This document shows, one piece after another, positions 15,022-34,400 of a stretch of DNA of 64,000 nucleotides (positions are counted from its first letter, which is position 1; each line of letters opens with the position of its first letter). Made by a program: the position numbers and the translations under genes. The DNA is from Maribacter algarum (ex Zhang et al. 2020) (GTDB lineage Bacteria; Bacteroidota; Bacteroidia; Flavobacteriales; Flavobacteriaceae), in NCBI RefSeq assembly GCF_005885635.1, contig NZ_VATY01000001.1, positions 434,001-498,000 of the forward strand, read 5' to 3'. Under the pieces are notes generated by a model. The model did no database searches. It was not told the DNA's origin and saw nothing but the letters and a program-made list of their open reading frames with translations.

Positions 15022-15030
15022 ATTTGGGGT
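15022..15030 (-). promoter_or_regulatory. ACCCCAAAT leader motif, site 1
   Basis: Reading on the minus strand, ACCCCAAAT ends exactly 9 nt before the ATG of the 895-residue lyase-like lipoprotein. The same 9-mer, with one W position, occurs at the same spacing before two other lipoprotein genes (17884-17892 and 34392-34400). It is not complementary to the usual anti-Shine-Dalgarno sequence, so a post-transcriptional or operator role is more likely than a plain ribosome-binding site (inference). Confidence 0.6.
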
Positions 15031-15068
15031 TTATCTTTACTTCGTTATAGCTACGCGACCATCTTATA

Positions 15069-15105
15069 AATAGCCGATGAACGACCCATTATTTCGATGA
15101 AATGC
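15069..15105 (-). promoter_or_regulatory. Conserved upstream block of lyase-like gene 1
   Basis: On the plus strand the elements are AATAGCCG (15069-15076), ACGACC (15081-15086) and TTTCGATGAAATGC (15092-15105). The same elements in the same order occur upstream of the paralogous lyase-like gene at 17942-18008. The block lies 57-93 nt before the start codon. It may be an activator site or promoter region, either conserved through duplication or maintained for co-regulation. Confidence 0.5.
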
Positions 15106-15577
15106 ACTTTATTTTAACAATTACACTTGTTTAATACGTTTTTAGAGCAGGTTTAGTATGATTCTATTCATATTTTTTAGTGATATTAAAGTACTCTTTA
15201 GGTGCCTTGAAACAGCGACGAAATCTATTCATCAATAAAAAACCCTATTCTTGAGTAAGTAGTTTGGCGAAGAGATACCTTGTTACGTGGGCATTCTTCC
15301 AATTTCAGAAGTACGATGAAAAATTATATTCCATGAAAATCAATTGGGTACTCTCACGAGTTCGTCCTTTATTTTAACCTTTTCAAAGAATTTTAATGCA
15401 GTTACAGTTTTAAAATATAATCTTTGCTACTACTATGATTACACAATCCTAAATCGCAAGAAAAGTGTCTTAGTTATTGAAATTCAGGTTAAAAATAATG
15501 CCTGTATGGCCGATTAATGAAAACTTAATAGCACATCCAAAGCATTCATACCAATGAAGCGCAGGTGGAAAAATTGA

Positions 15578-16759
15578 ATGAAAAGTACTATTTACATATA
15601 TGGCAATTTAGATTTTTCAGGCAACTCCGCTGCAGCAAAACGAATGATGTATTATGCAAAAGCTTTAGCCGATGAAAAAAGAAAGGTCTATTTGCTTAGC
15701 TGTAGCCGTACTAAAATTTGCCCTGAAAATTTTATCGAGGTCGAAAATGGAATTCATCTACTTAAAAGTAAATCGTATACTACATCATCTTTTAGTTCTT
15801 TCTTATTTTTAAGACGACTGTACTCTTTTTCAAAATCGAAAGCCACTCCTGCTTCATTTATTTTATATCCGCAGGCCTATTTTTTCTTGGAATTATGGAC
15901 CGTATTTTACTTGATATTCCTTAAACGACAGAAAGTCTTTTATGAATTCAATGAAGTTAAGAAACACTATATCTTTCTATACAAATCAAATTCAAGTTCA
16001 AAAATCAAGGCTTTCTTTAAAACCAATATTCATAAGGTTCTGTTTGTGATACTAGATTATTTGATGCGCTTTTACGAAGGTCTCATTTGTATTTCAACAA
16101 ACATTCAAGCCTATGGTGAGCTTTATAATAAGAATACGATACGTATTCCGATTTTGACAAATCCTAGACTTAAAATTGAGCATTCAAATAAAGAATATGC
16201 AGACGCAGACAGTTTTAATATCGGGTTTTCAGGTTCTATTGTCCCAGGAAAAGAAAACCTAATAGAGTTTGTACAGGTAATAAATAAAGTTCAAGAGAAA
16301 GGGTTTGCCTTAAAATTCAATTTATGCGGAACGTTATCAGAAAAGAATTCTAAGCTGATGATAGATTCCTGCACTCAAGAAAACACCATAAACTATTATG
16401 GAAATCTAAATGAAACGGAGTTGTCTAATTTTCTAAAACAACAAGATTTACTAGTGGTTCCACGTGGTTATACCCTTCAAAATAAATATGGGTTTTCCAC
16501 AAAACTTTCCGACTATCTCAATCACCTAAAAGTTATTCTAATTACTGACATCAGTGATAATGCCCTGTACATCAAAGATGGTGTAAACGGTTTCATAGTA
16601 GAACCAAACAGTCAAGAAATGATGTTCGAAAAACTAGTTTACATTATTGAAAATTTTGATGCTTTGAAAGAAGATATTATTGAGAATGCAATTAAAACTT
16701 CAAAAGAAAGTTTTGATTTTAGGTTATATAAAAGCGAACTTCAATCTTTTGTCAGTTGA
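15578..16759 (+). CDS. Glycosyltransferase family 4-like protein
   Basis: 393 residues. The N-terminal half opens with IYIYGNLDFSGNSAAAKRM, a glycine-containing donor/acceptor loop of GT-B enzymes. The C-terminal half has NIGFSGSIVPGKENLIEF and the variant motif GFSTKLSDYLNHLKVILITD in place of the usual E-x7-E. That FSTKLSDYL variant is common among GT4 enzymes of capsule and EPS loci. The protein is cytoplasmic with no signal peptide. It is a single-gene unit between the two divergently or convergently placed lyase-like lipoproteins. Sugar donor and acceptor are unknown. Confidence 0.8.
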   Translation: MKSTIYIYGNLDFSGNSAAAKRMMYYAKALADEKRKVYLLSCSRTKICPENFIEVENGIHLLKSKSYTTSSFSSFLFLRRLYSFSKSKATPASFILYPQAYFFLELWTVFYLIFLKRQKVFYEFNEVKKHYIFLYKSNSSSKIKAFFKTNIHKVLFVILDYLMRFYEGLICISTNIQAYGELYNKNTIRIPILTNPRLKIEHSNKEYADADSFNIGFSGSIVPGKENLIEFVQVINKVQEKGFALKFNLCGTLSEKNSKLMIDSCTQENTINYYGNLNETELSNFLKQQDLLVVPRGYTLQNKYGFSTKLSDYLNHLKVILITDISDNALYIKDGVNGFIVEPNSQEMMFEKLVYIIENFDALKEDIIENAIKTSKESFDFRLYKSELQSFVS

Positions 16760-16809
16760 ATACTTTACATCGTGTTACTAACTGATTTCAATAATTTCTC
16801 CATGGGAGT

Positions 16810-17874
16810 CTATTCGGGAGAAACTTTATCATACGCATTTTGTCTATAATTCGTATCACTAGGCTTTCTTGTAATGATGCGCAAAGGGCCCATAAAGGTC
16901 TCAACTTCACTGACACCTTGAGCTGCAGAAGTTTGAACCCCTGTTTCACTACGCCAGGCATGTTTGTAGATTCCAAATTTAGAATTACCTCCAACTCGGG
17001 TCGAGCTGCGGACTGTTCTTGTTGTTTGTAGGTCAACTAATTTGTTGCCATTTAACCACACTTCAAGCAAACCGGTGTTTTCATCTCCCCAAATCACATG
17101 AAGCACCACGTCAACCGTCTCTCCTGCCGTTGGCACAATGTTGGTGCCATAAATTGAATTTTTCGAACCATCCTGTGAGGCGTTCACAACAACTATTTCA
17201 CCGGTTTTATATGAGCTACCAGCTCTTCCGTCTATTTGCAATGAAAGCAATGGACTTGCCCCTAGGGTGCCTTCATGCGCTTGATAAAAAACCCAGTTAT
17301 TGGTAGGGTCAGGAATATAATTATCACCAAAACCATAGCTAAAACCAATCCATTCCTCAGTTCCGGATGGGTGATCAACGTTCCAAGGCATTGTTCTGAT
17401 TTCTGAGCGCATATTGAAATTTTCAGGACACCAGCTAGCGGGAGAAGGTTTGGTCGGATTAAGTACAAATCGCAAACGATTTCCTTCTTTATAAACTTGA
17501 TTGGCATTGCATTGAATGTTCAACGCCAATTGGCCATTGCTGAAGCTATCTCTTCCTGTAGATGCTCCCGATGGAACATCAATATCTCCCCAACACCAGG
17601 TCTTTAGTCCTGAATCATTTGCCATGCCCCCAGAGGTTGCGCAATCACCTGTTTCAGCAACTCCTTCATCATCTGAATCTTCCTTGGAAATATTTTCTTC
17701 TTGTTCTTCATTGGTTGTACCATCCTGTTCAATCAACGAAACAGTTTCTTCTTTGACAGTCTTGGCACTCAAAGTATCAGCATCCTTACTACAAGAAAAG
17801 TTGAATAGAAAAATTGCGATAAAAGTGCAAATAAAGTGCATAGGTAATCGTGTTCGAAAAGCCTGTAAGTTCAT
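16810..17874 (-). CDS. Surface lipoprotein with polysaccharide-lyase-like domain (paralogue)
   Basis: 354 residues. A lipoprotein signal ends FNFSC with Cys28, followed by SKDADT (C-x-K-D, like the CNKDRDT of the larger paralogue). An acidic linker (about 30-75) leads to a single jelly-roll domain (about 78-354) containing MRSEIRTMPW, EEWIGFSYGF, NWVFYQAHEG and HVIWGDENTGLLEVWLNG. It aligns along its length with the C-terminal domain of the protein at 12325-15012, including the terminal KPS/KPT..NAY(D/N)xV ending. The family cleaves acidic polysaccharides by beta-elimination; the shared R-x-E-I-R segment is a plausible active-site strand. The ATG at 17874 is preferred over the later Met12 because ACCCCAAAT sits 9 nt upstream, as in its relatives. 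It faces the GT4 gene convergently. Confidence 0.82.
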   Translation of the reverse strand: MNLQAFRTRLPMHFICTFIAIFLFNFSCSKDADTLSAKTVKEETVSLIEQDGTTNEEQEENISKEDSDDEGVAETGDCATSGGMANDSGLKTWCWGDIDVPSGASTGRDSFSNGQLALNIQCNANQVYKEGNRLRFVLNPTKPSPASWCPENFNMRSEIRTMPWNVDHPSGTEEWIGFSYGFGDNYIPDPTNNWVFYQAHEGTLGASPLLSLQIDGRAGSSYKTGEIVVVNASQDGSKNSIYGTNIVPTAGETVDVVLHVIWGDENTGLLEVWLNGNKLVDLQTTRTVRSSTRVGGNSKFGIYKHAWRSETGVQTSAAQGVSEVETFMGPLRIITRKPSDTNYRQNAYDKVSPE

Positions 17875-17883
17875 AAGTAGTAG

Positions 17884-17892
17884 ATTTGGGGT
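17884..17892 (-). promoter_or_regulatory. ACCCCAAAT leader motif, site 2
   Basis: On the minus strand ACCCCAAAT ends 9 nt before the ATG of the 354-residue lyase-like lipoprotein, identical in sequence and spacing to site 1. Outside the 9-mer the two leaders differ in the N9 spacer and in most of the preceding 40 nt, so the 9-mer stands out as the conserved part. Confidence 0.6.
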
Positions 17893-17941
17893 TAAAAGCT
17901 ATAGATAGAGCTCTTACACTACGTACGTAACTTACAATGCG

Positions 17942-18008
17942 AATAGTCGGCTAAAAGTATTAAAATTAGATGAAATACAATGTCACGACCAAGTTTTCGA
18001 TGAAATAC
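17942..18008 (-). promoter_or_regulatory. Conserved upstream block of lyase-like gene 2
   Basis: Plus-strand elements AATAGTCG (17942-17949), ACGACC (17985-17990) and TTTCGATGAAATAC (17995-18008) match the order found at 15069-15105. The ACGACC-to-TTTCG spacing is 4 nt here and 5 nt there. The gap between AATAGYCG and ACGACC is longer here. It lies 68-134 nt upstream of the ATG. Confidence 0.5.
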
Positions 18009-18410
18009 GCGATTCTATCCGAATTTATGAACTGTACATCGGAGATTGAACAAAGCCAGTTTTGTAAAATGCTGGTTCTAAAGCTTATAAAACGGCAAGG
18101 AAAATCTATACTATTCTAAGACCATGGCCGGGAAATCTTGTCACTGCTTTTTTATAATCCCCCAAATCATACCGATTAAAAAAATAAAGCTACTTATGTC
18201 GTATTATTTAACATTTTGAACGAAGTATAGACAGTTTAAACCAATAAATCCATAATTTGGTCGTCCCTAAAAAGTCCCAAAAAATAATAACCAAAAACAT
18301 CCTTAAATCGTTGATTATATGACGACTTTGATACAGCCAACACCTCATTCTGCAATGGATAACGGAAACCTAATACTTATACTATCCGACATTCAATAGA
18401 AGACGATTAA

Positions 18411-19505
18411 ATGAAAAAGAAAATTGCAGTAATTGGATTAAAAGGACTACCCGCCTTTGTTGGTGCTGGTACTGTTGGAGAAAACATTATTGACCAATTA
18501 AAAGATGAGTTCGACTTTTACGTATACTCAACCGCATCGCACACCGATCATAAATCAGGTTATTTAAATGGGTATTATCAAAAAGTTTTCAAAACCCTTC
18601 CTAACAAAAAACTTAATGCATTTTGGTATTACTTAATATCTGCATTACACGCTCGATTTATAGGAAAGTATGATGTAATTCATATACATAACAGTTTTGC
18701 TGGTTTTACCGTGGGACTGCTGAAAAGAAAATACCCTATTGTATTAACCACACACGGTGCCTTTATAGTTAGAGATAAGTGGAAAAAATTTGCATGGTTT
18801 TTTGAATATAATACGAAGCACCTCGTCAAAAAAGCGGACTATTTGTGCTGTGTATCAAAAGATGAGAGAAGACAATTCAAAGATCTACTAAACCTTGATG
18901 CTCATTACATTCCCAATGGCATTAATCCTGTTGATAAAAACACTTTGCCAAAACTTGACATTACGGAGCCTTATCTTTTCTTCGGTTCAGGTCGTATAAT
19001 ACCAACCAAAGGCTTACATGATTTAATGAAAGCATTGCATAAAATCAATTATAAAGGAAAATTAATTGTGGCAGGTGATATGGATCAAATGCAATCATAT
19101 AAATCTGAGCTTTTAAGTTTAGTTGGAGATTTAAATATTGAATTCATCGGCTTAATTAAGGACAAAAATCTACTTTATAGTTATATGATGCATGCTAAAA
19201 TGCTCATTTTCCCATCTTATGTTGAAGGCATGTCTATGATGTTGCTAGAAGCTGTCGCCGTAGATTGTCCGATAATCAGTAGTGATATAATTGCTAACAA
19301 AGATGTTTTGGCCAATAATGAGACCTTATATTTTAAAACTGGTGATATTGATGACCTAGCAGAAAAAATCACTTGGGCCTATTCGAATTTTGACGAGATG
19401 ATTAATCGCTCAAAAAATGCAAAAACTAAATTTTTGACCGAATACAATTGGCCGACTATTGCGCGTCAATATGAAGAAGTATTTAAGAAAGTTGCAAACA
19501 GATAA
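18411..19505 (+). CDS. Glycosyltransferase family 4
   Basis: 364 residues with a GT-B fold. The start MKKKIAVIGLKGLPAFVGAG is typical of rhamnosyl/mannosyl-transferase relatives. DVIHIHNSFAGF and TTHGAF lie in the N-domain. The C-domain has FGSGRIIPTKGLHDLMKA and the E-x7-E motif in VEGMSMMLLEAVAVDCPIIS. It is a cytoplasmic enzyme that adds one sugar to the lipid-linked repeat unit, probably from a nucleotide donor. It heads a three-gene plus-strand run (gaps of 28 and 30 nt) with a Gfo/Idh/MocA oxidoreductase and an uncharacterised barrel protein. Confidence 0.87.
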   Translation: MKKKIAVIGLKGLPAFVGAGTVGENIIDQLKDEFDFYVYSTASHTDHKSGYLNGYYQKVFKTLPNKKLNAFWYYLISALHARFIGKYDVIHIHNSFAGFTVGLLKRKYPIVLTTHGAFIVRDKWKKFAWFFEYNTKHLVKKADYLCCVSKDERRQFKDLLNLDAHYIPNGINPVDKNTLPKLDITEPYLFFGSGRIIPTKGLHDLMKALHKINYKGKLIVAGDMDQMQSYKSELLSLVGDLNIEFIGLIKDKNLLYSYMMHAKMLIFPSYVEGMSMMLLEAVAVDCPIISSDIIANKDVLANNETLYFKTGDIDDLAEKITWAYSNFDEMINRSKNAKTKFLTEYNWPTIARQYEEVFKKVANR

Positions 19506-19533
19506 ACCACAGTATACTTATAAAAATTAAAGA

Positions 19534-20574
19534 ATGAAACAAGAAAAACTAAAAATAGGAATCATCGGCCTCGGAAGAATGGGCTTGGTTCATGCTGCCA
19601 TATTTAACTCTCTTCCCGAAAGTGAAGTCGTGGCCGTGGTTGACCCTGCATTATTTCCAGCAAAGCCGCTTCAGATGATGAATCCTAAAATCAAAGTTTT
19701 TAAGTCTATTGACAAAATGTTAAAAAAGATGCATATAGACGGTGTTTTGATTGCTAGCCCAGTGGGGTTTCACATTGAGAATGCTTTAGAGTGTGTCCGT
19801 AATAACATCCCCTTCCTTATGGAAAAGCCACTGGCTTTAAATGCGGAACAAGCTCAGCCATTAATTGATGAACTTAAAAAAAATCCTGTGCCAAATATGA
19901 TCGGGTACATGGCACGTAATATTGATAGCTTTCAAGAAGGTAAAAAAATAATCGATTCAGGTGCCTTAGGTAAAATTATTAATGTCAAGGGAACGGTTTA
20001 CGTGTCACAACTTTTCAAGCAAGGAAAAGGTTGGAGATACGACCCAAAAATATCAGGAGGTGGCGTATTAGAAAGTCAAGGGTCTCATTTACTCGATTTA
20101 TTATACTGGTACTTTGGCCCTGTCAAAAAGGTGAATGCTGATATTCTTTCGGTATACTCAAAGGGAATTGAAGATTTCTCGCACGTAGTAATGGATTTTG
20201 AAAGCGGTCTAAAAGGTTGGATCGATGCTTCTTGGAGTGTACGGTTCAAAAGAAAGATGGAATTGAAAATAGATATCCTTGGGGAAAACGGAAACCTTGC
20301 CATCAGTGATGATTCGGTTGATCTTTTTCTAGATTCTCCAGTTGGGGACTATAAGAAAGGAAAGACTTATTTGTCAGCCAATGAATTATTCTCAGGGGTA
20401 CATATTGATATTTCAGGGGCAAAATTCACCTATCAAGATCAGGAATTTATTCGCGCTATTATGGAAAAAGATAGCACTTCTCCTTCCATACACGATGGTT
20501 TTCACATTCAAAAGATTGTAGATTCTTGTTACGAATCGGCATCAAATGATGGAGCACCTGTTTTTATAAAATGA
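19534..20574 (+). CDS. Gfo/Idh/MocA family sugar oxidoreductase
   Basis: 346 residues. The N-terminal Rossmann motif GIIGLGRMGLVHA is followed by VVAVVDP and the EKPL motif (FLMEKPLALNAEQA) that carries the conserved Lys. The C-terminal substrate domain contains GGGVLESQGSHLLDLLYWYFGP, with the family's catalytic His in GSHLLD. These NAD(P) enzymes oxidise or reduce sugars, often at C3 or C4 of nucleotide sugars in surface-polysaccharide loci. It is co-transcribed with the adjacent GT4 and the barrel protein; the specific sugar is not deducible. Confidence 0.88.
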   Translation: MKQEKLKIGIIGLGRMGLVHAAIFNSLPESEVVAVVDPALFPAKPLQMMNPKIKVFKSIDKMLKKMHIDGVLIASPVGFHIENALECVRNNIPFLMEKPLALNAEQAQPLIDELKKNPVPNMIGYMARNIDSFQEGKKIIDSGALGKIINVKGTVYVSQLFKQGKGWRYDPKISGGGVLESQGSHLLDLLYWYFGPVKKVNADILSVYSKGIEDFSHVVMDFESGLKGWIDASWSVRFKRKMELKIDILGENGNLAISDDSVDLFLDSPVGDYKKGKTYLSANELFSGVHIDISGAKFTYQDQEFIRAIMEKDSTSPSIHDGFHIQKIVDSCYESASNDGAPVFIK

Positions 20575-20604
20575 TTTGATTTAAAAGAATAACCATTAAT
20601 TATA

Positions 20605-21483
20605 ATGAAAAAATTAGATAAGATACTACTCGGACATAACCCGTTATTTGGGGTAGATCACCTTTCTCAAGCACAAGGAAATGCGAAAGATCAAAAGTTC
20701 GAAAACAAGAACGCCTTGACTGATATATTGAGGTATGCTCATAGTAAGGGTGTAAAAGCCATGATGATGTCCACCCATCCTCGGGCACAAGTAATTCTTG
20801 ATATTATTGAAAAAGACCCTGTATTAAAGGATGATTTTACCGTTTATCCACTTTTACCCTACGTTGTAAAATATGTAAGAGCATCCAATGAAAAAGGAAT
20901 GTTCAACGTGGTAAAAGATTTGCTGGGCCAAGCAGGAACCGGTGGAAGCTTATCTATGTTCATGAGCGGATTAAGTAGTCTTGTAGGCGGAAATCTTTAT
21001 AAGACTATAAAAATTCTAATTGACATTGAAATGCTACCATTCAAAAATCACAAATTGGGAGCTGTTTTCATGCATGACGGATTGGTCGATTTGGCATTAG
21101 GTCTTGGTTGTGACGAAGCGTTTGATGTTTTCAGAGACCATATCGAAAAAAAGTACAGTGTCCCTGGTGGCCTGATTACCAAAAATGTACCAATGCTAGT
21201 GGATACCCTAGATGCTAGAGGTTGGGAGGAGTATCTCATCATGGCAGCTTTTAATAAAACGGGGTTCTATATCAACCCTTCTTTGGAATTGACCGAAAAG
21301 ACCTTGAAAAAACCTGGAATGAACTTTATCCCGATGAGTACCCTAGCTGCTGGTGCTATTCCGCCTCAAGAGGCATTCGAATATATCGGACAATTTCCTG
21401 AAGTTAAATCTGTAGTAGTTGGTATGTCTAAGAAAAGCCATATTGATCAGACCGTAGATTTAATAAATCAAAATATTAGGTAG
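20605..21483 (+). CDS. Uncharacterised TIM-barrel/aldo-keto-reductase-like protein
   Basis: 292 residues, not confidently recognised. It begins LDKILLGHNPLFGVDHLSQAQG and ends with TLAAGAIPPQEAFEYIGQFPEVKSV and VGMSKKSHIDQTV. Those endings resemble the final strands of aldo-keto reductase barrels (G-A-x-P and SVVVG...HI). The classic AKR catalytic Tyr/Lys/His tetrad is not obvious, so it may be a degenerate or divergent barrel. Two glycine-rich stretches (GQAGTGGSLSMF, GLSSLVGG) occur in the middle. Position after a Gfo/Idh/MocA enzyme with 30 nt between them suggests a linked step on the same sugar, perhaps isomerisation or lyase chemistry (inference only). Confidence 0.6.
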   Translation: MKKLDKILLGHNPLFGVDHLSQAQGNAKDQKFENKNALTDILRYAHSKGVKAMMMSTHPRAQVILDIIEKDPVLKDDFTVYPLLPYVVKYVRASNEKGMFNVVKDLLGQAGTGGSLSMFMSGLSSLVGGNLYKTIKILIDIEMLPFKNHKLGAVFMHDGLVDLALGLGCDEAFDVFRDHIEKKYSVPGGLITKNVPMLVDTLDARGWEEYLIMAAFNKTGFYINPSLELTEKTLKKPGMNFIPMSTLAAGAIPPQEAFEYIGQFPEVKSVVVGMSKKSHIDQTVDLINQNIR

Positions 21484-21493
21484 TAATTTATAC

Positions 21494-21535
21494 GTTTCTG
21501 GGAAGAGTTTCTTTCCAGAAACTTAGTATTTCTTT
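21494..21535. terminator. Hairpin terminator between convergent genes
   Basis: GTTTCTGGGAAG (21494-21505) pairs with CTTTCCAGAAAC (21511-21522) through 12 pairs, one of them G-U, with a 5-nt loop. A T-rich tail (TTAGTATTTCTTT) follows on the plus strand. It lies between the stop of the barrel protein (plus) and the stop of the GT4 gene (minus), where a shared terminator is expected. Confidence 0.75.
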
Positions 21536-21543
21536 AGCAGTAT

Positions 21544-22668
21544 TTACGCTTTCCCTTTTATTTCAAAATCACCATCTTTAATCGCTACATCGTCAATGTT
21601 TGCGATAAAATCTAGGTACTTTTTTTGAAAGGCTTCAAAACTAAAGTTATCAATCAAGTGAGTATAACTATGTTTTCCCATTTCCGCTCTAAGCTGAGGG
21701 TTCTCAATTAATTGCTTTACTTTTTGAGCAAGGTTTTTGTAATCATTAACCTCAGCAAGAAAGCCATTTTTGGTGTCTAGCACCAAACGAGAATTATCTC
21801 CCACATCTGTCGCAATAATAGGCATAGCACAATTCATAGCCTCCATTAAAGCATTAGAAATACCTTCAAATGACGAAGTACACAGGTAGATATTTGCCGT
21901 GTCAAGCATCGCATACATGTCTGTAGCATCAGTTACAACATCTATTTCCTCTTTTACATCATGTTTTTTAATTTGTTCTAAAATAGAATCATATTCCGGT
22001 CCTTGACCGACAATTGTGTATTTAAGACTAATATTTTCATGGATAATTGTTTTTAGGTGAGCAATAGTTTGAATTGCAATATCATATCGCTTAGGCAATG
22101 CCAATCTTCCAAGACTTATCATCTTAATCTGATCTGCATCATCTGCTTTTTCATGAAGTTCTCTAATTTCAATACCATTTGGAATTACGAATATCTTCGG
22201 AGTAAATCCAAAATCTATAGCAACTTGGTAGCCCGCATAGTTATTCGCAATGGTATAATCCAGTAAGTAGTTGTGCGTGGCTTTTAAGGCCCTAAACTTC
22301 CACTTAGGCCAAGAACTACTTCTAATACCTCCTATTCTATATTTGACTCCGGATAATTTCCCTACGATAGCTGATAAAACAGTGTCGGTCGCTAGAAACG
22401 AAAAGGTGTATTCTATCTTTTTCTTCTTAAATAACTTAAATAAAACTTGAGTCTTGCCAAAGATGCTTTTAGGAAGGAAAATAGTTTCAATACCCTCTTC
22501 TTGAATGGTCTTTAATCTAGGAGCATACACTTCTTTCGTTGGGTCAACTACAACGAGAATAACGTTATGAAATGGTTTTAGGGCCTGAGCTAATAGCACA
22601 CTTTGTTTTTCAGCCCCGCCCATTACAAGCGCGTTAATTGTAATACAGATGTTTTTCTTTTGCTTCAT
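21544..22668 (-). CDS. Glycosyltransferase family 4
   Basis: 374 residues with a GT-B fold. The N-terminus NICITINALVMGGAEKQSVLLAQAL carries the G-G-A-E acceptor-site loop of GT4 enzymes. The C-domain has MISLGRLALPKRYDIAIQTIA and the E-x7-E motif SSFEGISNALMEAMNCAMPIIATDVGD. Cytoplasmic. It is the last gene of the minus-strand polysaccharide operon that begins at 31831, 89 nt downstream of another glycosyltransferase. It probably adds a sugar to the repeat unit; donor unknown. Confidence 0.88.
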   Translation of the reverse strand: MKQKKNICITINALVMGGAEKQSVLLAQALKPFHNVILVVVDPTKEVYAPRLKTIQEEGIETIFLPKSIFGKTQVLFKLFKKKKIEYTFSFLATDTVLSAIVGKLSGVKYRIGGIRSSSWPKWKFRALKATHNYLLDYTIANNYAGYQVAIDFGFTPKIFVIPNGIEIRELHEKADDADQIKMISLGRLALPKRYDIAIQTIAHLKTIIHENISLKYTIVGQGPEYDSILEQIKKHDVKEEIDVVTDATDMYAMLDTANIYLCTSSFEGISNALMEAMNCAMPIIATDVGDNSRLVLDTKNGFLAEVNDYKNLAQKVKQLIENPQLRAEMGKHSYTHLIDNFSFEAFQKKYLDFIANIDDVAIKDGDFEIKGKA

Positions 22669-22757
22669 TAGTTATCTTCCACTCAAATATTTTATCTTAA
22701 ATACTGCTTTTAAAATGCACTACTTGCCATCATCCTTTGTTTCGCTTTTGCAGTTAT

Positions 22758-23966: not shown

Positions 23967-24074
23967 TTGGTGATGCTTTAAAAAAATAGAGTTGTTCGAA
24001 ATTAATTGTTCCGGCCAACGCAATGGTCACGGTAATCAGGATATAGTTACGACATCGTAATCCTGTAAGACAAA

Positions 24075-25436: not shown

Positions 25437-25453
25437 TTTATAAAATTGATGAC

Positions 25454-26833: not shown

Positions 26834-26904
26834 TTTACCCTAGTATTGGAGAAATCGATTACAACGGCTCGATAAACATTTTACCGTTAGAAATTAATAT
26901 AAAC

Positions 26905-29301
26905 TTAAACTGAAAGTGACTCGTTGACTAATTGGTCTTCTTTGTTTTTGCCATATTTCTCCTCATAACCGTATTTGTGGTCTTTTTTAGGTACGTCATT
27001 AAAGATTATGAAGCTTTTCTTATTCTTCAGAATTAGCCCTTTTAAATCTTCTAAAAATTTGATTCTTGCTATCTTTCTTCGTACCACAAATAAATTGATG
27101 TCTATAACTTCTGAGAGAAGCATAAAATCAGAAACAAGACCTGCGGCCGGCGTGTCTAGAATGATATAATCAAATTTCCCTTTCAGTTCTTCCACGAGGT
27201 TTTTCAGTCTAGAGCCTGAAAGCAGCTCATGTACATTCCCCTCTGCCAAAGAAGTAGGTATGAACTTCAGATTGCTCAATTCCTCATGCGGATAAGTAAT
27301 ATCGTTTATCTCAAAAACATTACCCCGCAGGTAGTTGTAAAGCCCTTTTCCTTCAACCTTATTCACCCTATTTACTAGACTTGGATTACGTAAATCCATA
27401 TCAATAATGAGTGTTCTTTTACCAGCTTCAGCAAAAGTGATTCCCAAATTAATGGCACTATACGTTTTTCCCTCTTCAGGCATAATTGATGTCACACCTA
27501 AAACACAAGGTTCTTTTGAACTCACAAACCTTAAGTTGGTACTTAGGTCTCTAAATGATTCTTTAAACTTCCATAAGGATACATCAGATTTGGATTTTTT
27601 GCCTTTTGATTCGTGATGTACAATACTTGCTATGACCGGAATATCACTATTCGCCATGATCTGACCCACGTTTTCAATAATATCCCTTGACGAAAACAAA
27701 ACAATCCATGCCATTGGAATCAATGTGCCCACTATAAGTGCCAATAATAAAAGAAGGGGTTTCTGAGGTGAAACCGGGCCAGTTCCAACCATTCTTGCTT
27801 CATCCAATATTCTGGTATCGGAAGTATTTTCGGCACCAGCAATACCCGTTTTTGCTAACTCCTGACTGAGGTAGTTGAAGAGGTTCTCGTAAAGCGCACT
27901 TTGCCTTTCAATAGTTAGTAGTTGGTTTTCTTGGTTCGGCAGAGAACTAATAACCCCATTATAACTTGATAACTGTGAATTGATTCTTTCTAAAGTAAAC
28001 TCAGAAGACTTAATAGAATTTCTCAAATTACTTAAAAGTAAATCTGTCGATTCATCAATTTGTTTGTTGAGAATATTCATTTCTTGATTCGTACTGGTCA
28101 CATAGAACTTCTTTTTTGACCGTTCCGCGTACAATCTTTTGAGTTCAAGTACATTTTCATTTATTAGACGGTCATCTATACCGATGGCCGTGGGTATTAC
28201 AAACTCTTCACTGTTTCGATTATCTTGAATATTTTGAATTAGGGAATTGTAATAGTCAACATTCAATTTGATTTTGGCCTTTTGCATTTGCAAGTTCGAA
28301 GTTCGACCTAGTGCGTTGGAGGCAGTGGCACTTAAGTCAAGTGCTCTCTTATCCTTTTTGAAGTTCTCGAGACTTAATTCAACCTTCGTCAGGGAATCTG
28401 ACACAACCTTCAATTGATTTCTTATGAAATCCTCTTTGGCCGATGCAATCTTGTTTCTGGAGGTAAGCTTGCTTTCAACGTAGTTTTCAGTAAGCTTCTT
28501 CAGAAAATCTACCTCCTTGGCAACAAGGGTACCAGACGATGTTATTTTAAATATACTGGCTTGGATATCAATATTGCTAACCCCTATTTTTGAAGCGTAG
28601 CCTCCAGCCACGGCATCTAGACTACTAATAGTAAAACTTAGTTGCTCTTCCTTAAAATCTTCATTTAACACCTTATACTCAGGTTTTTCAAGAGTAAAAT
28701 TGAAATAATCATGAATGACAGGTTGACCTAGTCTATATTCCTTGGAGAATCTGAAGTCTCTCTTAATCTCCCGTGTAGAGCCATTTACCGGATTCGAAAC
28801 AGTAAAATCATCACCTTCAATAGTTATTCTGTACGTATCATTCGGAAGCATTTCAATCTCAAATGGAACACCGTACAGCTGCGATTTGCTCTTATCAAGT
28901 GTAACCACAATAGGAAAATAACCGTAGGATTCTTTTTCCTTAATGAGACCTTTCGTATGATAACTGACATCGAACCCAAGATCTTCAACGGTTTGCCTGA
29001 TTAGACTAAAGGATTTAATAATACCTATTTCGTTATACAAGTTCTTTTCAACGTCTATAAGACCTACTCCCCCATCAACATATTTACTATCACCCAAAGC
29101 CCGGCTTCCAGAGGCATCAATTAGAATAGAAGTAGATGCTTCATATTTTGGTGTGGCCAATTTAATATAAACCATAGCAAGAGCTAAGCACAGACCGATA
29201 CTCAAAATAAAAAACCATTTATTTTGAAGTATTTTCTGAAAAAATAATTTCAAATTAACCTCGTGTTGAGCGTTAAATTGAGAGTCCTTATTCTCTTTCA
29301 T
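26905..29301 (-). CDS. Wzc-like polysaccharide co-polymerase and tyrosine autokinase
   Basis: 798 residues. A Wzz-type N-terminal helix (about 29-50) leads to a long periplasmic part with coiled coil and GNVR-like segment, then a second helix (about 517-540, KPLLLLLALIVGTLIPM). The cytoplasmic kinase domain has Walker A SIMPEEGKTYSA (about 605-613), Walker A' TLIIDMDLRNP and Walker B FDYIILDTPAAG. The C-terminal Tyr cluster is HKYGYEEKYGK. BY-kinases of this type control chain length by cycles of autophosphorylation. The Wza-like lipoprotein is immediately upstream (51 nt). No low-molecular-weight tyrosine phosphatase (Wzb) is present in the window, so dephosphorylation must be encoded elsewhere. 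Confidence 0.92.
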   Translation of the reverse strand: MKENKDSQFNAQHEVNLKLFFQKILQNKWFFILSIGLCLALAMVYIKLATPKYEASTSILIDASGSRALGDSKYVDGGVGLIDVEKNLYNEIGIIKSFSLIRQTVEDLGFDVSYHTKGLIKEKESYGYFPIVVTLDKSKSQLYGVPFEIEMLPNDTYRITIEGDDFTVSNPVNGSTREIKRDFRFSKEYRLGQPVIHDYFNFTLEKPEYKVLNEDFKEEQLSFTISSLDAVAGGYASKIGVSNIDIQASIFKITSSGTLVAKEVDFLKKLTENYVESKLTSRNKIASAKEDFIRNQLKVVSDSLTKVELSLENFKKDKRALDLSATASNALGRTSNLQMQKAKIKLNVDYYNSLIQNIQDNRNSEEFVIPTAIGIDDRLINENVLELKRLYAERSKKKFYVTSTNQEMNILNKQIDESTDLLLSNLRNSIKSSEFTLERINSQLSSYNGVISSLPNQENQLLTIERQSALYENLFNYLSQELAKTGIAGAENTSDTRILDEARMVGTGPVSPQKPLLLLLALIVGTLIPMAWIVLFSSRDIIENVGQIMANSDIPVIASIVHHESKGKKSKSDVSLWKFKESFRDLSTNLRFVSSKEPCVLGVTSIMPEEGKTYSAINLGITFAEAGKRTLIIDMDLRNPSLVNRVNKVEGKGLYNYLRGNVFEINDITYPHEELSNLKFIPTSLAEGNVHELLSGSRLKNLVEELKGKFDYIILDTPAAGLVSDFMLLSEVIDINLFVVRRKIARIKFLEDLKGLILKNKKSFIIFNDVPKKDHKYGYEEKYGKNKEDQLVNESLSV

Positions 29302-29352
29302 TTTTCAATTATAAAGTTCAAGTGCTTATGCATACCTCCAATAAATTTTTTC

Positions 29353-30198
29353 CTACTTCGTAGTAAAATTCAATACTAAAACAGTAGTTGTAATGGCTGA
29401 TAAAATTAAAGTTAACACTCCCAAGTTACTTTGTTTTATATTAGGTTTTGAAGTCTCTACATAAATAACATCGTTAGGATGTAAAAAATAGTATGGAGAC
29501 TTAATAATCGAAGGTTTCGTTAAATCTAAATTTACTACCACTGATTCGTTCCCAATCTGTCTTATAACCTTTACCTTTTTTCGCTTCGCAGATAGGTTTA
29601 AATCCCCAGCGGCCGCCAATCCTTCAAAAATTGTGGCCTGGTTATTATATATATAATTTGTTCCCGGGTTTTTGACATCACCCAAAACAGAGACTTTAAA
29701 ACTTGTTAATTGAACAGTTACTGCTGCATTAACAAGGTATTTGTCTATTTCTACTTGCACCAAATCTCGAATCTCATCGACATTGAGTCCACCCACCTTA
29801 AGTTCGCCAACAATAGCGAGATTTATTGCTCCTTCTGGATCGACCGTGTAACCACTAAGAAACAAGGAAGCAGGATTTGCTTGAAAATTTCTATTCTCGA
29901 TAGAGGTCAAGTTAAAAAAAGCCGTTTGTTCAGGATCTCTACTTTGCACTTTTATACTTAAGACATCACTAGGTTGAATCTTGTATTGCTCTCCTTTGTT
30001 AAGGGGTAAAATAATAGTTTGTTGATTACTTTGTAAATAATCAACCCCTTTTGATGTATAGCAAGAAGATAACATGAATGCCAAGATCAATGCAATTGAA
30101 AAGTTAAAACCTATTGATTTTCTCATATCCAACATAGACTTCTTCATTTTAGATGTTATACTCTTTTTACTCATACTATTTGTGCAATTTGCAGTCAT
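29353..30198 (-). CDS. Wza-like polysaccharide export outer-membrane lipoprotein
   Basis: Up to 281 residues. The lipobox is AFMLSSC, followed by YTSKGVDYLQ. A Poly_export domain (YKIQPSDVLSIKVQSRDPEQ), a SLBB-like domain (FKVSVLGDVKNPGTNYIYNNQ) and a C-terminal hydrophobic segment (LGVLTLILSAITTTVLVLNF) follow. The start is uncertain: Met1 at 30198 gives an unusually long pre-signal region, while ATGs at 30147 and 30126 give conventional lipoprotein signals, 30126 being the most economical. It forms the outer-membrane channel for polysaccharide export with the Wzc-like protein just downstream. Confidence 0.9.
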   Translation of the reverse strand: MTANCTNSMSKKSITSKMKKSMLDMRKSIGFNFSIALILAFMLSSCYTSKGVDYLQSNQQTIILPLNKGEQYKIQPSDVLSIKVQSRDPEQTAFFNLTSIENRNFQANPASLFLSGYTVDPEGAINLAIVGELKVGGLNVDEIRDLVQVEIDKYLVNAAVTVQLTSFKVSVLGDVKNPGTNYIYNNQATIFEGLAAAGDLNLSAKRKKVKVIRQIGNESVVVNLDLTKPSIIKSPYYFLHPNDVIYVETSKPNIKQSNLGVLTLILSAITTTVLVLNFTTK

Positions 30199-30325
30199 TG
30201 AAGACTTAATTTATACTTTAAAAACATGAAGCATCTGGGCGCTCGGCCTTTTATTTCATTATGTGTATTCCAATTGGACTGTAACATGTTTGCGTTTCAA
30301 TATCTAGTTTTTCTTCCTTGATGTA

Positions 30326-30333
30326 CAAAGTTA
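30326..30333 (-). promoter_or_regulatory. Candidate -7 promoter box (TAACTTTG) for the wza-like operon
   Basis: The minus-strand sequence TAACTTTG matches the Bacteroidota -7 consensus TAnnTTTG. It lies in the 214-nt gap between the phosphoglycosyl transferase and the Wza-like gene, 128-193 nt upstream of the possible starts. No clear TTG element is seen at the usual distance upstream. It could allow the export genes to be transcribed apart from the initiating transferase. Confidence 0.4.
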
Positions 30334-30412
30334 AAACCCAAAATTAATCTATAGTTAATATTATGTATTATTATCATACATATCACTCCATTCAAAGGTG
30401 ATAATTTATGGT

Positions 30413-31831
30413 TTAAAATGCCTTTTTATGGTGACCCCCAAAAACCGTCATAAAAATGATCTTTACATCTAACCAAAAACTCCAATTTTCAATATACCAT
30501 AAATCATGATGAACGCGTTCGTTTTTTTGTTCTTCGGTCACCGTTGGGCCACGCCAACCATTTACTTGCGCCCAACCAGTAATCCCGGGTTTCACGTAAC
30601 TCCTAACCATATAGTTTTTAACCGTACTTCTAAAATCATTCTGTAAATGAATTCGGTGTGGCCTGGGTCCTATAACGCTCATATCACCTTTCAATACATT
30701 AAAAAACTGAGGTAGCTCATCTAAATCCAACTTTCTTAAGAACTTACCCACCCTAGTTATTCTTGGGTCATTGACTTCTGTTGATTTTGTCCCATTCATA
30801 GGGTCTTCACAGACAGACATTGTTCTAAACTTATAGCATTTAAATGTTCTATTTGCTTCTCCTTTTCTGTAAGGTGTATAAAAAATAGGACCTCTATTAT
30901 CTAGATATATCAGAATCGCAATTAACAAGAAAATCGGTGCAAATGCGATAAGTATAAAAAAAGCAAACAAGAAATCGAAAAGACGCTTTAAAATAGTTAA
31001 ACTGAAATTATCCAATGGTGATTGGCGCAATTTAAAAACGGCCAACTCGCCCATAGTAAATGCCTTATAGTTTTTTGACATTAAAAGCGGGTTCTCAGGA
31101 ATCAATTTAATGCGAACTCCAAAATCATCGGCAACCTTAATGACCTCCGCAATTTTTTCGTGTTTCACATCTGACATGGAAACGAAAATTTCATCAATGG
31201 AATAATCTCGCAACACATCTGGTAAATCATCGATTTCACCAGAAACACTCAAATCAAGATCGTTTGGGGTCATTACATTTCGATCTTCAAGATAGCCCAT
31301 TACATTATACCCATATTGGGTCATAGCATTTATAAAACCCGTTAGGTTATTGCCTTTGTAACCTGAACCAATCAATAAGGTATTTGAAAAAAGGTGAGAA
31401 CCTTTATCCTTTAGAAATCTCAACAAGTACTTAGCACTAATCAAGATTAAGTATGAAAAGATAAAAATTGGTATGATAAAGGTTGAGCGAACAAAATAAT
31501 CAATCCTAAAAACCAAGGCCAAAGTTGTAACTATTCCTATAAAGAAGAACAAAGAAGTTAAAACGTTCTTCATATAACGATAATCTGCATTGAAATAGAA
31601 TTCATTATCACGAATGTAGAGTATTATAAATAACCAACTTAGGTTATAAATAGTACCTAGTTTTACCATATTCAAAAGAAACCCGGTATCATTAAAAGAG
31701 AATTGTGGAAGCTTGAAGTAAAGAAATACAACCAAAACAAAATTCAATAAAATGAATTCAATGGCCAGTAAATTGACAAGTACAAATCTATTTTTAGAAT
31801 TCATGAAAAAGGTTATAAAAAGGAACAACAT
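30413..31831 (-). CDS. Initiating polyprenyl phosphoglycosyl transferase (WcaJ/WbaP-like)
   Basis: 472 residues from 31831, or 463 from the ATG at 31804, which is followed by the more usual MNSKNRFVLVNLLAIEFI. Four N-terminal helices and a CoA-binding-like Rossmann segment (NTLLIGSGYKGNN) precede the catalytic bacterial-sugar-transferase domain. That domain has the membrane-entry helix KRLFDFLFAFFILIAFAPIF, KCYKFRTM, LRKLDLDELPQFFNVLKGDM, SVIGPRPHR and GWAQVNGWRGPT. It transfers a sugar phosphate (glucose or galactose type) to undecaprenyl phosphate, the first step of repeat-unit assembly. It is the first gene of the minus-strand operon. Confidence 0.92.
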   Translation of the reverse strand: MLFLFITFFMNSKNRFVLVNLLAIEFILLNFVLVVFLYFKLPQFSFNDTGFLLNMVKLGTIYNLSWLFIILYIRDNEFYFNADYRYMKNVLTSLFFFIGIVTTLALVFRIDYFVRSTFIIPIFIFSYLILISAKYLLRFLKDKGSHLFSNTLLIGSGYKGNNLTGFINAMTQYGYNVMGYLEDRNVMTPNDLDLSVSGEIDDLPDVLRDYSIDEIFVSMSDVKHEKIAEVIKVADDFGVRIKLIPENPLLMSKNYKAFTMGELAVFKLRQSPLDNFSLTILKRLFDFLFAFFILIAFAPIFLLIAILIYLDNRGPIFYTPYRKGEANRTFKCYKFRTMSVCEDPMNGTKSTEVNDPRITRVGKFLRKLDLDELPQFFNVLKGDMSVIGPRPHRIHLQNDFRSTVKNYMVRSYVKPGITGWAQVNGWRGPTVTEEQKNERVHHDLWYIENWSFWLDVKIIFMTVFGGHHKKAF

Positions 31832-32304
31832 GAAATCCCATTAGATAACCTTCCATACTTTTGTATAGACTGTACCTGATTAATGTTCTGCCCCTTTTGG
31901 TTTGGTCTTTATAGTTAAAAGTCGAAATTAATTTTATGCTACCTAACAGGGCAAATTATTAGATGAACGACGAAAATATCCTTCGTACTACAAACGAATT
32001 ACTAATTAAGCAACATTCAAGGTTCAAAATGCAAAACCATCAAACCTGCCTATATTATTGCCTTTTCAAGTAACATTTAATATAAGAAACATATTGGACC
32101 ATGGGTTTATCAAAAGATTAATTTTTATGTTTTCAAAATTCACCCTCCCTGATAACCGTTTCAATAAATTTTCGAACATTTATCTGAGGAATTCTGATTT
32201 GCTCGATAAGTAAGGATATTATTTCTCAAAATAACCTTAGCACAAGGCCTAGCCAAAAAACTGATGGCATTTACCTATCTTTAATATTGGATTTTTAATT
32301 TAGG
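31832..32304. other. 473-bp divergent intergenic region upstream of the EPS operon
   Basis: Separates the minus-strand polysaccharide operon from the plus-strand SanA-like gene. No ORF is supportable. A strict plus-strand TACTTTTG box lies at 31856-31863 but is 440 nt from the gene it would serve. A near-consensus TATCTTTA at 32276-32283 is better placed for the SanA-like gene. I find no strict box pointing into the EPS operon. Confidence 0.5.
32276..32283 (+). promoter_or_regulatory. Near-consensus -7 box (TATCTTTA) before the SanA-like gene
   Basis: TATCTTTA differs from TAnnTTTG only at the last base and lies 21 nt before the ATG at 32305, giving a very short leader as is common in this phylum. 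No TTG element at the normal distance is clear, so the call is weak. Confidence 0.3.
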
Positions 32305-32940
32305 ATGAAAAAAAAATACTTCCGGATTCTACTTTGGCTTACAGTAATACCAATTCTCCTGGTTTTGCTTTGCAACTTTGCTATTAATTCTTCAGCTGAG
32401 GGAAAAACGTTTTCGCGAATCGAAGAGGTTCCAAAAAATAAAGTAGGTTTGGTTCTTGGCACTGCTAAAAAGTTATCCGATGGTCGTCCGAACCTTTACT
32501 ATTCATATCGTATAATGGCAACTGTAGCTCTTTTCGAAGCGGGTAAAATAGAATTTGTTTTGGTGAGTGGTGATAATGGTACACAATACTACAATGAACC
32601 TACTACCATCAAGAAAGATTTGATCGCGGAGGGAATTCCTCAAGAAAAGATATTTCTAGATTATGCCGGTTTTCGAACTTTAGATTCAATGGTTCGCGCC
32701 AAAGAAGTATTCGGTTTGGAAAAAGCGACCGTAATTTCACAAAAATTTCACAACCAGAGAGCTATTTATATCGCCGAGCGAAAGGGGCTCACCGCTATTG
32801 GTTTTAACGCTACGGATGTAACTGGCAATTCTGGACTGAAAGTACATCTCAGGGAATATCTTGCACGTGTAAAAGTGTTCATTGACTTAATATTCAATAC
32901 TCAACCCAAATTTTATGGTGAGCGCATCGAAATAAGGTAA
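32305..32940 (+). CDS. SanA/YdcF/ElyC family protein (DUF218)
   Basis: 211 residues. One N-terminal membrane helix (about 7-27) is followed by a DUF218 domain with VGLVLGTAKKLSDGRPNLYY, VLVSGDNG, LDYAGFRTLDSMVRAKEVFG and ISQKFHNQRAIYIA. These motifs are those of E. coli SanA, an inner-membrane-anchored periplasmic protein linked to envelope barrier function and vancomycin exclusion; its reaction is not established. It precedes an NRAMP-like transporter by 58 nt. It may be envelope-related rather than part of the polysaccharide machinery. Confidence 0.87.
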   Translation: MKKKYFRILLWLTVIPILLVLLCNFAINSSAEGKTFSRIEEVPKNKVGLVLGTAKKLSDGRPNLYYSYRIMATVALFEAGKIEFVLVSGDNGTQYYNEPTTIKKDLIAEGIPQEKIFLDYAGFRTLDSMVRAKEVFGLEKATVISQKFHNQRAIYIAERKGLTAIGFNATDVTGNSGLKVHLREYLARVKVFIDLIFNTQPKFYGERIEIR

Positions 32941-32998
32941 CAAGAACACCTTTAAGGAAAAAAACTTATTTTAGGAAGCGTAATAAGAACCATCGCCA

Positions 32999-34252
32999 AT
33001 GTCAAAACTTCAAACACTTCTTAAAAATCTTGGCCCTGGGCTTTTGTTTGCCAGCATGGCTATTGGCACCTCTCACTTGGTTCTTTCCACCAAAGCTGGG
33101 GCTCAATATGGTTGGTTGATGGTAATTCCAATTATTCTAGCTAACATTTTTAAGTATCCTTTTTTTGAGTTTGGTGTGCGTTACACTAACGTTACAAACA
33201 AAACCCTTATTGAAGGTTATCTTAATCGCGGAAAAGGCTGGTTATGGTTTTACGCTTTCATCACTTTGATTACAACTTTTACGATATTAGCTGCTCTTTA
33301 TACGGTCACGGCAGGTCTTTTCATAAACCTATTCAAAATTTCAGATATTTCCATTGCCATGGTAGCTCTTGGCCTCTTTGTGTTCATTAGTGCTTTGCTA
33401 ATAATTGGTCGTTATCGGTTTCTTGAAACCTCCTTAAAGTTTGTAGTGGCCATTTTATTCATCGCACTTTTGGTTACTACTATTCTCGTAATTTATAAGG
33501 GTCAAGTCGATTCTGTCGTTGACTTCTCACCACCTCCTATATTTAACGATGCGGGAATTTTATTTTTAATAAGTCTAATGGGATGGATGCCCACCACGGT
33601 AGAAGCCTCAAGTTGGGTTAGTCTTTGGAGCATTGAAAAATGGAAAAACCAGAATGTAAAACCTACCTTGAAACAGTCACTACAAGAATTCAATATTGGG
33701 TATTTAATGACAGCAATTTTAGCGATATTCTTTTTGATTATAGGTTCAATGACGCTATATGGAACTGGTATTGAATTAAGCGGTAACGGTGTCGTTTTTG
33801 CGGATCAGGTTGTTTCATTATTTACAACGCATATTGGTTCGTGGGCTTATATATTTATTGCCGTTTCCGCTTTTGCAACTATGTTTAGCACCTGTATGAC
33901 GGCCCACGATGCTGTAACCCGCGTGAGTTTGGATATTATCGATTTATTATCCCCAAAGACGAAGCTTCAGGGTAAAAAAAGTTTCTTTGCAATTGGCGTT
34001 CTTTTGCTAGCTGCTATCAATTTTATAGTTATCGCCCTGTTCTCCGCCAACATGGGTAAGTTAGTTGCTCTGGCCACTTTTGTTTCATTTGTAGTTGCTC
34101 CTATTATAGGTTACATGAACCTCAAAAATGTTATGAGCGACGATTTAGCAGAGGAAAACAAGCCTCAAAAATGGCTACAATACTTAACCTATGCGGGTAT
34201 TGTTTTTTTGGCTTTCTTTTCAATTTACTATTTCTACATAGTAATTTTTTAG
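32999..34252 (+). CDS. NRAMP-related (SLC11-like) membrane transporter
   Basis: 417 residues with about 11 transmembrane helices. The start LLKNLGPGLLFASMAIGTSH and the glycine pattern are NRAMP-like. Helix 1 of canonical Mn/Fe NRAMPs carries Asp-Pro-Gly-Asn, but here the equivalent is AIGTSHLVLSTKAGAQYGW. The helix-6 Met-Pro-His motif is replaced by MGWMPTTVEASSW. The canonical metal ligands therefore appear altered, as in NRAMP-related subgroups with different substrates (Mg-like or non-metal); the substrate here is unknown. Confidence 0.82.
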   Translation: MSKLQTLLKNLGPGLLFASMAIGTSHLVLSTKAGAQYGWLMVIPIILANIFKYPFFEFGVRYTNVTNKTLIEGYLNRGKGWLWFYAFITLITTFTILAALYTVTAGLFINLFKISDISIAMVALGLFVFISALLIIGRYRFLETSLKFVVAILFIALLVTTILVIYKGQVDSVVDFSPPPIFNDAGILFLISLMGWMPTTVEASSWVSLWSIEKWKNQNVKPTLKQSLQEFNIGYLMTAILAIFFLIIGSMTLYGTGIELSGNGVVFADQVVSLFTTHIGSWAYIFIAVSAFATMFSTCMTAHDAVTRVSLDIIDLLSPKTKLQGKKSFFAIGVLLLAAINFIVIALFSANMGKLVALATFVSFVVAPIIGYMNLKNVMSDDLAEENKPQKWLQYLTYAGIVFLAFFSIYYFYIVIF

Positions 34253-34391
34253 CAGTAATTTTCATGCTTCTATTTTATACCCACCCCTGCAATTTGTTAG
34301 ACAAAATACTGGTTATCAATTAAATAAAGTATAAACTCAATTCTAGGTTGAAGTCCTTAAAGTGATTTTTTTACGTACATATTTAAAATTC

Positions 34392-34400
34392 ACCCCTAAT
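34392..34400 (+). promoter_or_regulatory. ACCCCTAAT leader motif, site 3
   Basis: ACCCCTAAT ends exactly 9 nt before the ATG at 34410 of the beta-propeller lipoprotein. It matches sites 1 and 2 in 8 of 9 bases and in spacing. A TTACGTAC stretch at 34370-34377 upstream recalls the TACGTAC near site 2, but site 1 lacks it. Confidence 0.55.

Follow-up and report, generated by a model that had tools for sequence, protein, structure and literature searches.

Does a slime-making bacterium jointly control the surface enzymes that may cut slime? This question is raised by a stretch of 64,000 nucleotides (nt) from Maribacter algarum (contig NZ_VATY01000001.1; hereafter, the window), which carries an exopolysaccharide (EPS) or capsule cluster encoding Wzz, an export protein, a sugar transferase, Wzy_C, a flippase and glycosyltransferases. 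Within it, the pattern ACCCCWAAT-N9-ATG precedes two PL20-like lyase lipoproteins and one oligogalacturonate-lyase-like beta-propeller lipoprotein. A first-pass annotation of the sequence had read the shared 9-mer as a leader element or operator co-controlling surface lipoproteins that act on polysaccharides. Our analysis separates the motif into two parts, of which the run of C residues (C-tract) looks like a small but real control element rather than a chance resemblance or a genome-wide switch. All coordinates and the spacing of exactly 9 nt were confirmed for the three sites (protein lengths in amino acids, aa):

15022..15030, minus strand: motif copy 1, ACCCCAAAT; C-tract 15026-15029, A-rich WAAT 15022-15025, gap of 9 nt to the ATG at 15012
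17884..17892, minus strand: motif copy 2, ACCCCAAAT; C-tract 17888-17891, gap of 9 nt to the ATG at 17874
34392..34400, plus strand: motif copy 3, ACCCCTAAT; C-tract 34393-34396, gap of 9 nt to the ATG at 34410
12325..15012, minus strand: lipoprotein, 895 aa, with PKD domains and a C-terminal Polysacc_lyase domain (PF14099)
16810..17874, minus strand: 354-aa lipoprotein with Polysacc_lyase (PF14099), from a family whose profile matches glucuronan lyase A (2zzj)
34410..35732, plus strand: 440-aa lipoprotein with a predicted beta-propeller fold, closest in fold to oligogalacturonate lyase 3c5m

The first-pass annotation was also right that the motif precedes no further gene start of the window at this spacing: the fourth ACCCCWAAT (20646-20654, minus strand) lies within an open reading frame (ORF; 20605-21483, plus strand) and is followed, at a spacing of 8, only by an ORF of three codons. 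Judged from the motif itself rather than from the 16S rRNA of this genome, ACCCCWAAT does not resemble a purine-rich Shine-Dalgarno sequence, which would pair with CCUCC of that RNA. Rfam returned no leader RNA at the gathering score in the window, and nothing on the motif was found among the titles and abstract openings of the literature consulted.

That the third gene encodes another fold than the two PF14099 polysaccharide lyases (PLs) was borne out by structure prediction. The 440-aa protein has no Pfam match at E 0.001, but its model (pLDDT 76.6) finds oligogalacturonate lyase 3c5m as the best Foldseek match (E 5e-12, TM 0.50-0.57, 14% identity), followed by unrelated WD40 propellers at E about 3e-9. 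Because of this match, and of the match between the PL-set profile and glucuronan lyase A (E 6e-6), both families are probably polyuronate lyases carried on lipoproteins.

Conservation of the C-tract in two gene families

By count alone, the motif is unremarkable. The window holds four bare copies where 1.57 are expected, and at least four occurred in 9 of 100 shuffles. When random sets of 46 genes were drawn from a genome sample (627 genes outside the window), 18 of 200 contained at least three genes that share, at the same spacing, a 9-mer allowing one free position; a top-ranked shared 9-mer with both at least three genes and at least four G/C positions appeared in none of 300 further sets, for each of which the first top-ranked 9-mer alone was inspected. 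A scan for ACCCCWAAT-N9-ATG across the whole 5.1-Mb genome, put forward in the first-pass annotation as a check, gave six places against four for the reversed control and thus no clear excess. At the three places outside the window, the ORFs that follow have 2, 5 and 7 codons, so that all copies at real gene starts sit in this window. As two of the three genes are paralogues, representing two independent leaders rather than three, the window alone says little and the orthologues decide.

Among these, the C-tract recurs at one place. CCCC is present at positions -21 to -11 in 9 of 12 leaders of propeller lipoproteins (five genera) and CCC in 10 (six genera), while the 33 leaders of PL-type lipoproteins contain CCCC in nine and CCC in 14 cases; both sets include the window's own genes. 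The corresponding background, taken from other genes of four genomes, is 6/765 for CCCC and 39/765 for CCC. In other 10-nt bins of the same leaders, CCC occurs in at most 1/12 (propeller) or 2/33 (PL) cases. For instance, the propeller leader in three Zobellia-type genomes reads CGTACATNTTTAAACCCCGAAAT-N9-ATG. Many orthologues of both families thus retain the C-tract, as expected of the conserved leader element first suggested, and it marks many genes for probable polyuronate-lyase lipoproteins across two unrelated folds. The lyase itself was also found in records labelled Zobellia, Pseudozobellia, Maribacter, Pricia, Eudoraea, three Saprospiraceae and one Granulosicoccaceae; one copy (L039, G014:C16:47068-48129) is interrupted by an in-frame TAA inside the match, perhaps a sign of a decayed paralogue.

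These counts depend on start codons picked by lipobox rules. Two propeller orthologues (L213, with TTG, and L217, with the second ATG) were given the start that aligns with their relatives, which biases them toward a spacing of 14 nt, and L218, missed by the lipobox rule, had its start set by hand. L082, whose GTG start is preceded by ACCCTAAAT at 8 nt, was assessed by eye and stands outside the 12 propeller leaders. Also left out were L219-L229, seemingly non-lipoproteins or with doubtful starts, L230, and the weak matches L083 and L084. On the lyase side, 33 of 47 PL ORFs were counted (lipobox plus 120 nt upstream), several per genome and hence non-independent.

Each family might simply have inherited a C-rich leader of its own, with the resemblance between the two, aided by a general A-rich site, meaning nothing. 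In line with this, the two leader families share little past CCCC and that A-rich site, no regulon links them, their genes lie on different contigs in G014 and G024 (our genome labels), and two of the three window genes are paralogues. However, C-runs at this place are rare in other genes, and they are retained in two families with probably similar polymer substrates; we consider a chance likeness unlikely.

The two halves of the motif and their distance to the start codon

ACCCCWAAT is a compound: its right half, WAAT, is general, and its left half, CCCC (-17 to -14), is specific. Bacteroidota mRNAs are described as lacking Shine-Dalgarno sites, and genes of Flavobacterium johnsoniae show an excess of A from -14 to -11, where positions -12 and -13 promote translation, according to the part of PMC6847099 drawn on here. 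The A fraction reaches 0.45-0.56 at -13 to -10 in the present genome (G000) and in G014, and the WAA of the motif sits at -13 to -11, as is characteristic of an A-rich initiation site in this phylum. Since WAA coincides with these generally A-rich positions, both the WAAT half and its distance to the ATG are to be expected. A striking shared 9-mer can, in other words, combine one general with one specific half.

The C-run ends 13-14 nt ahead of the start codon, a distance common to both families, in 18 of 26 leaders (range, 7-17 nt). The tract is also predicted to be mostly unpaired, its mean pairing probability being 0.15 over the 26 leaders vs. 0.37 over 55 other leaders with CCC, as compared without a significance test. 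A hairpin involving the C-tract was considered and set aside, none being predicted for most leaders.

Search for a wider regulon

The idea of a wider regulon of exported carbohydrate-acting lipoproteins was not supported. Leaders with CCC at -21 to -11 are not enriched for exported proteins (16/39 vs. 238/726, p 0.19), nor significantly for lipoproteins (6/39 vs. 82/726), and a genome-wide lipoprotein or export signal was rejected on this ground. Within the subset starting with ATGAA, 8/8 vs. 143/267 proteins were exported (p 0.008); this subset was chosen post hoc and is one of several tried.

Shorter cores fared similarly. CCC[AT]AAT has seven matches at -20 to -11 compared with five in nine other bins when the window is included, and four at -20 to -11 among 354 genes of the same genome without it. 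As the core is nearly absent from the last 20 nt of leaders in other genomes (0/209 in G014, 0/97 in G002 and 1/105 in G013), it was dropped as a family-wide rule. The looser pattern ACCCNWAN{9,12}ATGAA matched the M. algarum genome 67 times vs. 31 for the reversed control, an excess partly expected because real starts are A-rich; by a crude rule, 20 of the 67 matches resemble starts, and their products—exported, membrane and cytosolic—have no clear theme.

The element therefore looks narrower than first proposed, i.e. specific to these two gene families and not a genome-wide switch. Of the original interpretation, the conserved leader element on probable polyuronate-acting lipoproteins stands; the wider regulon is not supported, the WAAT half is general, and the spacing varies.

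Upstream boxes, the transcript 5′ end and known systems

Several boxes precede the C-tracts of the window:

34374..34378, plus strand: CGTAC box of the third gene, 19 nt ahead of its C-tract; possible -10 CGT box of an ECF-type promoter
15052..15055, minus strand: CGTA box of the 895-aa gene, 26 nt ahead of its C-tract
15094..15105, minus strand: GCATTTCATCGA, a separate and widespread element, here upstream of the 895-aa gene
17920..17927, minus strand: CGTACGTA, 36 and 32 nt before the C-tract of the 354-aa gene
17997..18005, minus strand: TTTCATCGA, related to GCATTTCATCGA; upstream of the 354-aa gene

In Flavobacterium psychrophilum, SM6 promoters with a -10 CGT box have been attributed to extracytoplasmic function (ECF) sigma factors, and the median 5′ untranslated region (UTR) is 24 nt (PMC9723704, as far as the part used here reports). 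CGTA lies 14-16 nt before the C-tract in nine of the ten propeller leaders with a tract, and 19 nt before it in that of the window. In long-lyase homologues, this distance is 34-42 nt, mostly 36-38, with a second CGTA at 26 nt in L160. A further box, (T/C)(A/G)TCGA (a broader pattern than TCATCGA, used for all distances to this box), precedes the C-tract by 56-57 nt in four short-PL leaders and by 79-87 nt in six of nine long-PL leaders, the window's distance being 70 nt. Relative to three long homologues of the same genus, the boxes of the 895-aa gene at 15052-15055 and 15094-15105 are both about 11 nt, or one helical turn, nearer to the C-tract.

Variants of the sigma-A -7 box (TAnnTTTG) were the top motifs of a discovery run upstream of genes. 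Matches to TAnnTTTG near C-tracts are mostly weak, the strongest being TATATTTG, 4 nt before the tract in L150; a fixed position of the C-tract relative to this box was looked for and not found.

Tentatively, we favor a gene-family-specific promoter or leader signal, i.e. an unpaired C-tract at or near the putative mRNA 5′ end, directly before the general A-rich site; we rate this as possible, somewhat short of probable. WAAT at -13 to -10 would serve as the general A-rich site of translation initiation, and the C-tract at about -18 to -14 would be the element specific to genes for surface polyuronate-lyase lipoproteins. In the propeller gene, CGTA acting as a -10 CGT box of the flavobacterial ECF-sigma type would put +1 at or just before the C-tract and give an unstructured 5′ UTR of about 18-22 nt. 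There at least, we infer, transcription would begin at or close to the C-tract, making it the 5′ end of a very short leader. In lyase genes, the C-tract tends to keep set distances to the boxes ahead of it within each subfamily, as would be expected of a core promoter.

A series of observations weighs against this. The propeller leaders L215 (CCTCAAAT) and L079 are without CCC at -21 to -11 (2/12), and CCC is missing from 17 of 33 PL-type leaders even when -24 to -8 is considered, the G004 and G009 lyases of 356 and 357 aa being examples. Among the 16 PL leaders with a tract, CGTA is 26-42 nt before it in 11 and not close by in five; if CGTA were the -10 element there, the C-tract would consequently lie inside the leader and not at +1. 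CGTA is, moreover, a common 4-mer (present in 148/364 long upstream regions), and in 10 of 12 genomes CGTAN{7,16}ACCCCNAA was less frequent than its reversed control, exceeding it only in G014 (45 vs. 35) and G024 (49 vs. 35), so that a CGTA..ACCCC regulon was rejected. Distances to the (T/C)(A/G)TCGA box are uneven, with values of 83, 85 and 111 nt in short PLs as well, 63 nt in the long L159 and no box in L161, and propeller leaders have none. Five of 26 C-tracts show a pairing probability of at least 0.30. Finally, a scan of 14 genomes belonging to the genus for AACCCCWAAT-N{2,20}-ATG gave 136 matches, among which spacings 4 (17 matches) and 3 (14) both exceed spacing 9 (13). By eye, seven of the 13 at spacing 9 begin a gene whose product carries a lipobox or signal peptide (four being PL genes), compared with two gene starts among 11 examined of the 123 at other spacings. 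Given this distribution and the range of 7-17 nt among orthologues, a spacing of 9 nt is common but not invariant.

The shared distance to the start codon could instead point to RNA-level control. The zone just ahead of a start codon is one where ribosome binding can be blocked, and an unpaired C-tract beside the A-rich site might be bound by a trans-acting small RNA or RNA-binding protein that controls lyase translation. Such an operator would fit the predicted single-strandedness of the tract, its overlap with this zone, and the finding that the two families have the distance to the start codon in common, and not that to CGTA. Yet the CCC[AT]AAT, CGTA-spaced and export-enrichment tests brought up no wider target set, the partner is putative, and like spacings to upstream DNA boxes within subfamilies suggest that DNA matters, too. 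We consider an RNA operator rather unlikely.

The element GCATTTCATCGA upstream of the 895-aa gene is strongly over-represented: 80 copies in 11 genomes (the window's and 79 others, e.g. L333-L382) vs. four of the reversed pattern, with at least seven copies in eight of the 11 genomes. Of 52 sites read, 42 look intergenic, and a weak second copy follows about 20 nt downstream, the pair being reminiscent, we presume, of tandem LytTR-type sites. GCATTTCATCGA precedes several unrelated conserved families, partly at a kept distance (52 nt for a MENS-type protein of ~124 aa, 166-187 nt for a MEYFINCNTS-type protein), and also occurs before SCSKD lipoproteins; among the papers listed, no title bore on it. 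Lipoproteins of ~1000 aa (L266 and L042, at G000 contig C15 near 213 kb; L028, L041) share an N-terminal SCSKDxD region with the lyase lipoproteins, and the one of the present genome is preceded by TCCCAAAT, 3 nt from its ATG, and by GCATTTCATCGA at a distance of about 250 nt. In two genera (L333, L374), the gene downstream of GCATTTCATCGA has CCCCCAAAT or CCCCCAAT 16-21 nt before an ATG.

A third possibility is that ACCCC is part of a transcription-factor site overlapping the transcription start. Box-to-tract distances of ~57, 70 and 80-83 nt rise roughly in helical-turn steps, and the shortening by about one turn in the 895-aa gene affects both boxes. However, ACCCCWAAT has no built-in dyad or repeat and is not enriched genome-wide. 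A link to GCATTTCATCGA seemed suggestive when single sites were counted (CCCCAA at 16/42 sites vs. 26/364) but is not significant after grouping by homology (5/24 clusters vs. 33/364, p 0.07) and was given up. A DNA operator is quite improbable in our view.

Few promoter and leader signals have been mapped in Flavobacteriaceae, and the conserved C-tract offers a small, concrete target for the mapping of transcript starts. Under the favored promoter or leader reading, one known system invites comparison: E. coli pyrC and similar genes are controlled by pyrimidine-sensitive start-site choice or reiterative initiation at C-runs, and they resemble the present genes in having a C-run at or near the (here putative) transcript start. 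Conceivably, the C-tract might be an initially transcribed sequence through which polyuronate-lyase promoters sense pyrimidine nucleotides, by switching start sites or slipping at CCCC, and the amount of surface lyase would then be set by how strongly EPS synthesis draws on nucleotide sugars; we regard this as highly improbable.

Two flavobacterial systems are also comparable. Compared with the SM6 promoters of F. psychrophilum as presented in the part of PMC9723704 used, CGTA in the propeller leaders takes a plausible -10 position, whereas no -35 element is visible by eye, and in the lyase leaders with a tract CGTA is 26-42 nt away (11/16) or not found nearby (5/16). As for the A-rich and Kozak-like determinants described for F. 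johnsoniae in the portion of PMC6847099 consulted, the C-tract is no part of that signal and is rare in other genes here, while the WAA of the motif falls squarely within it.

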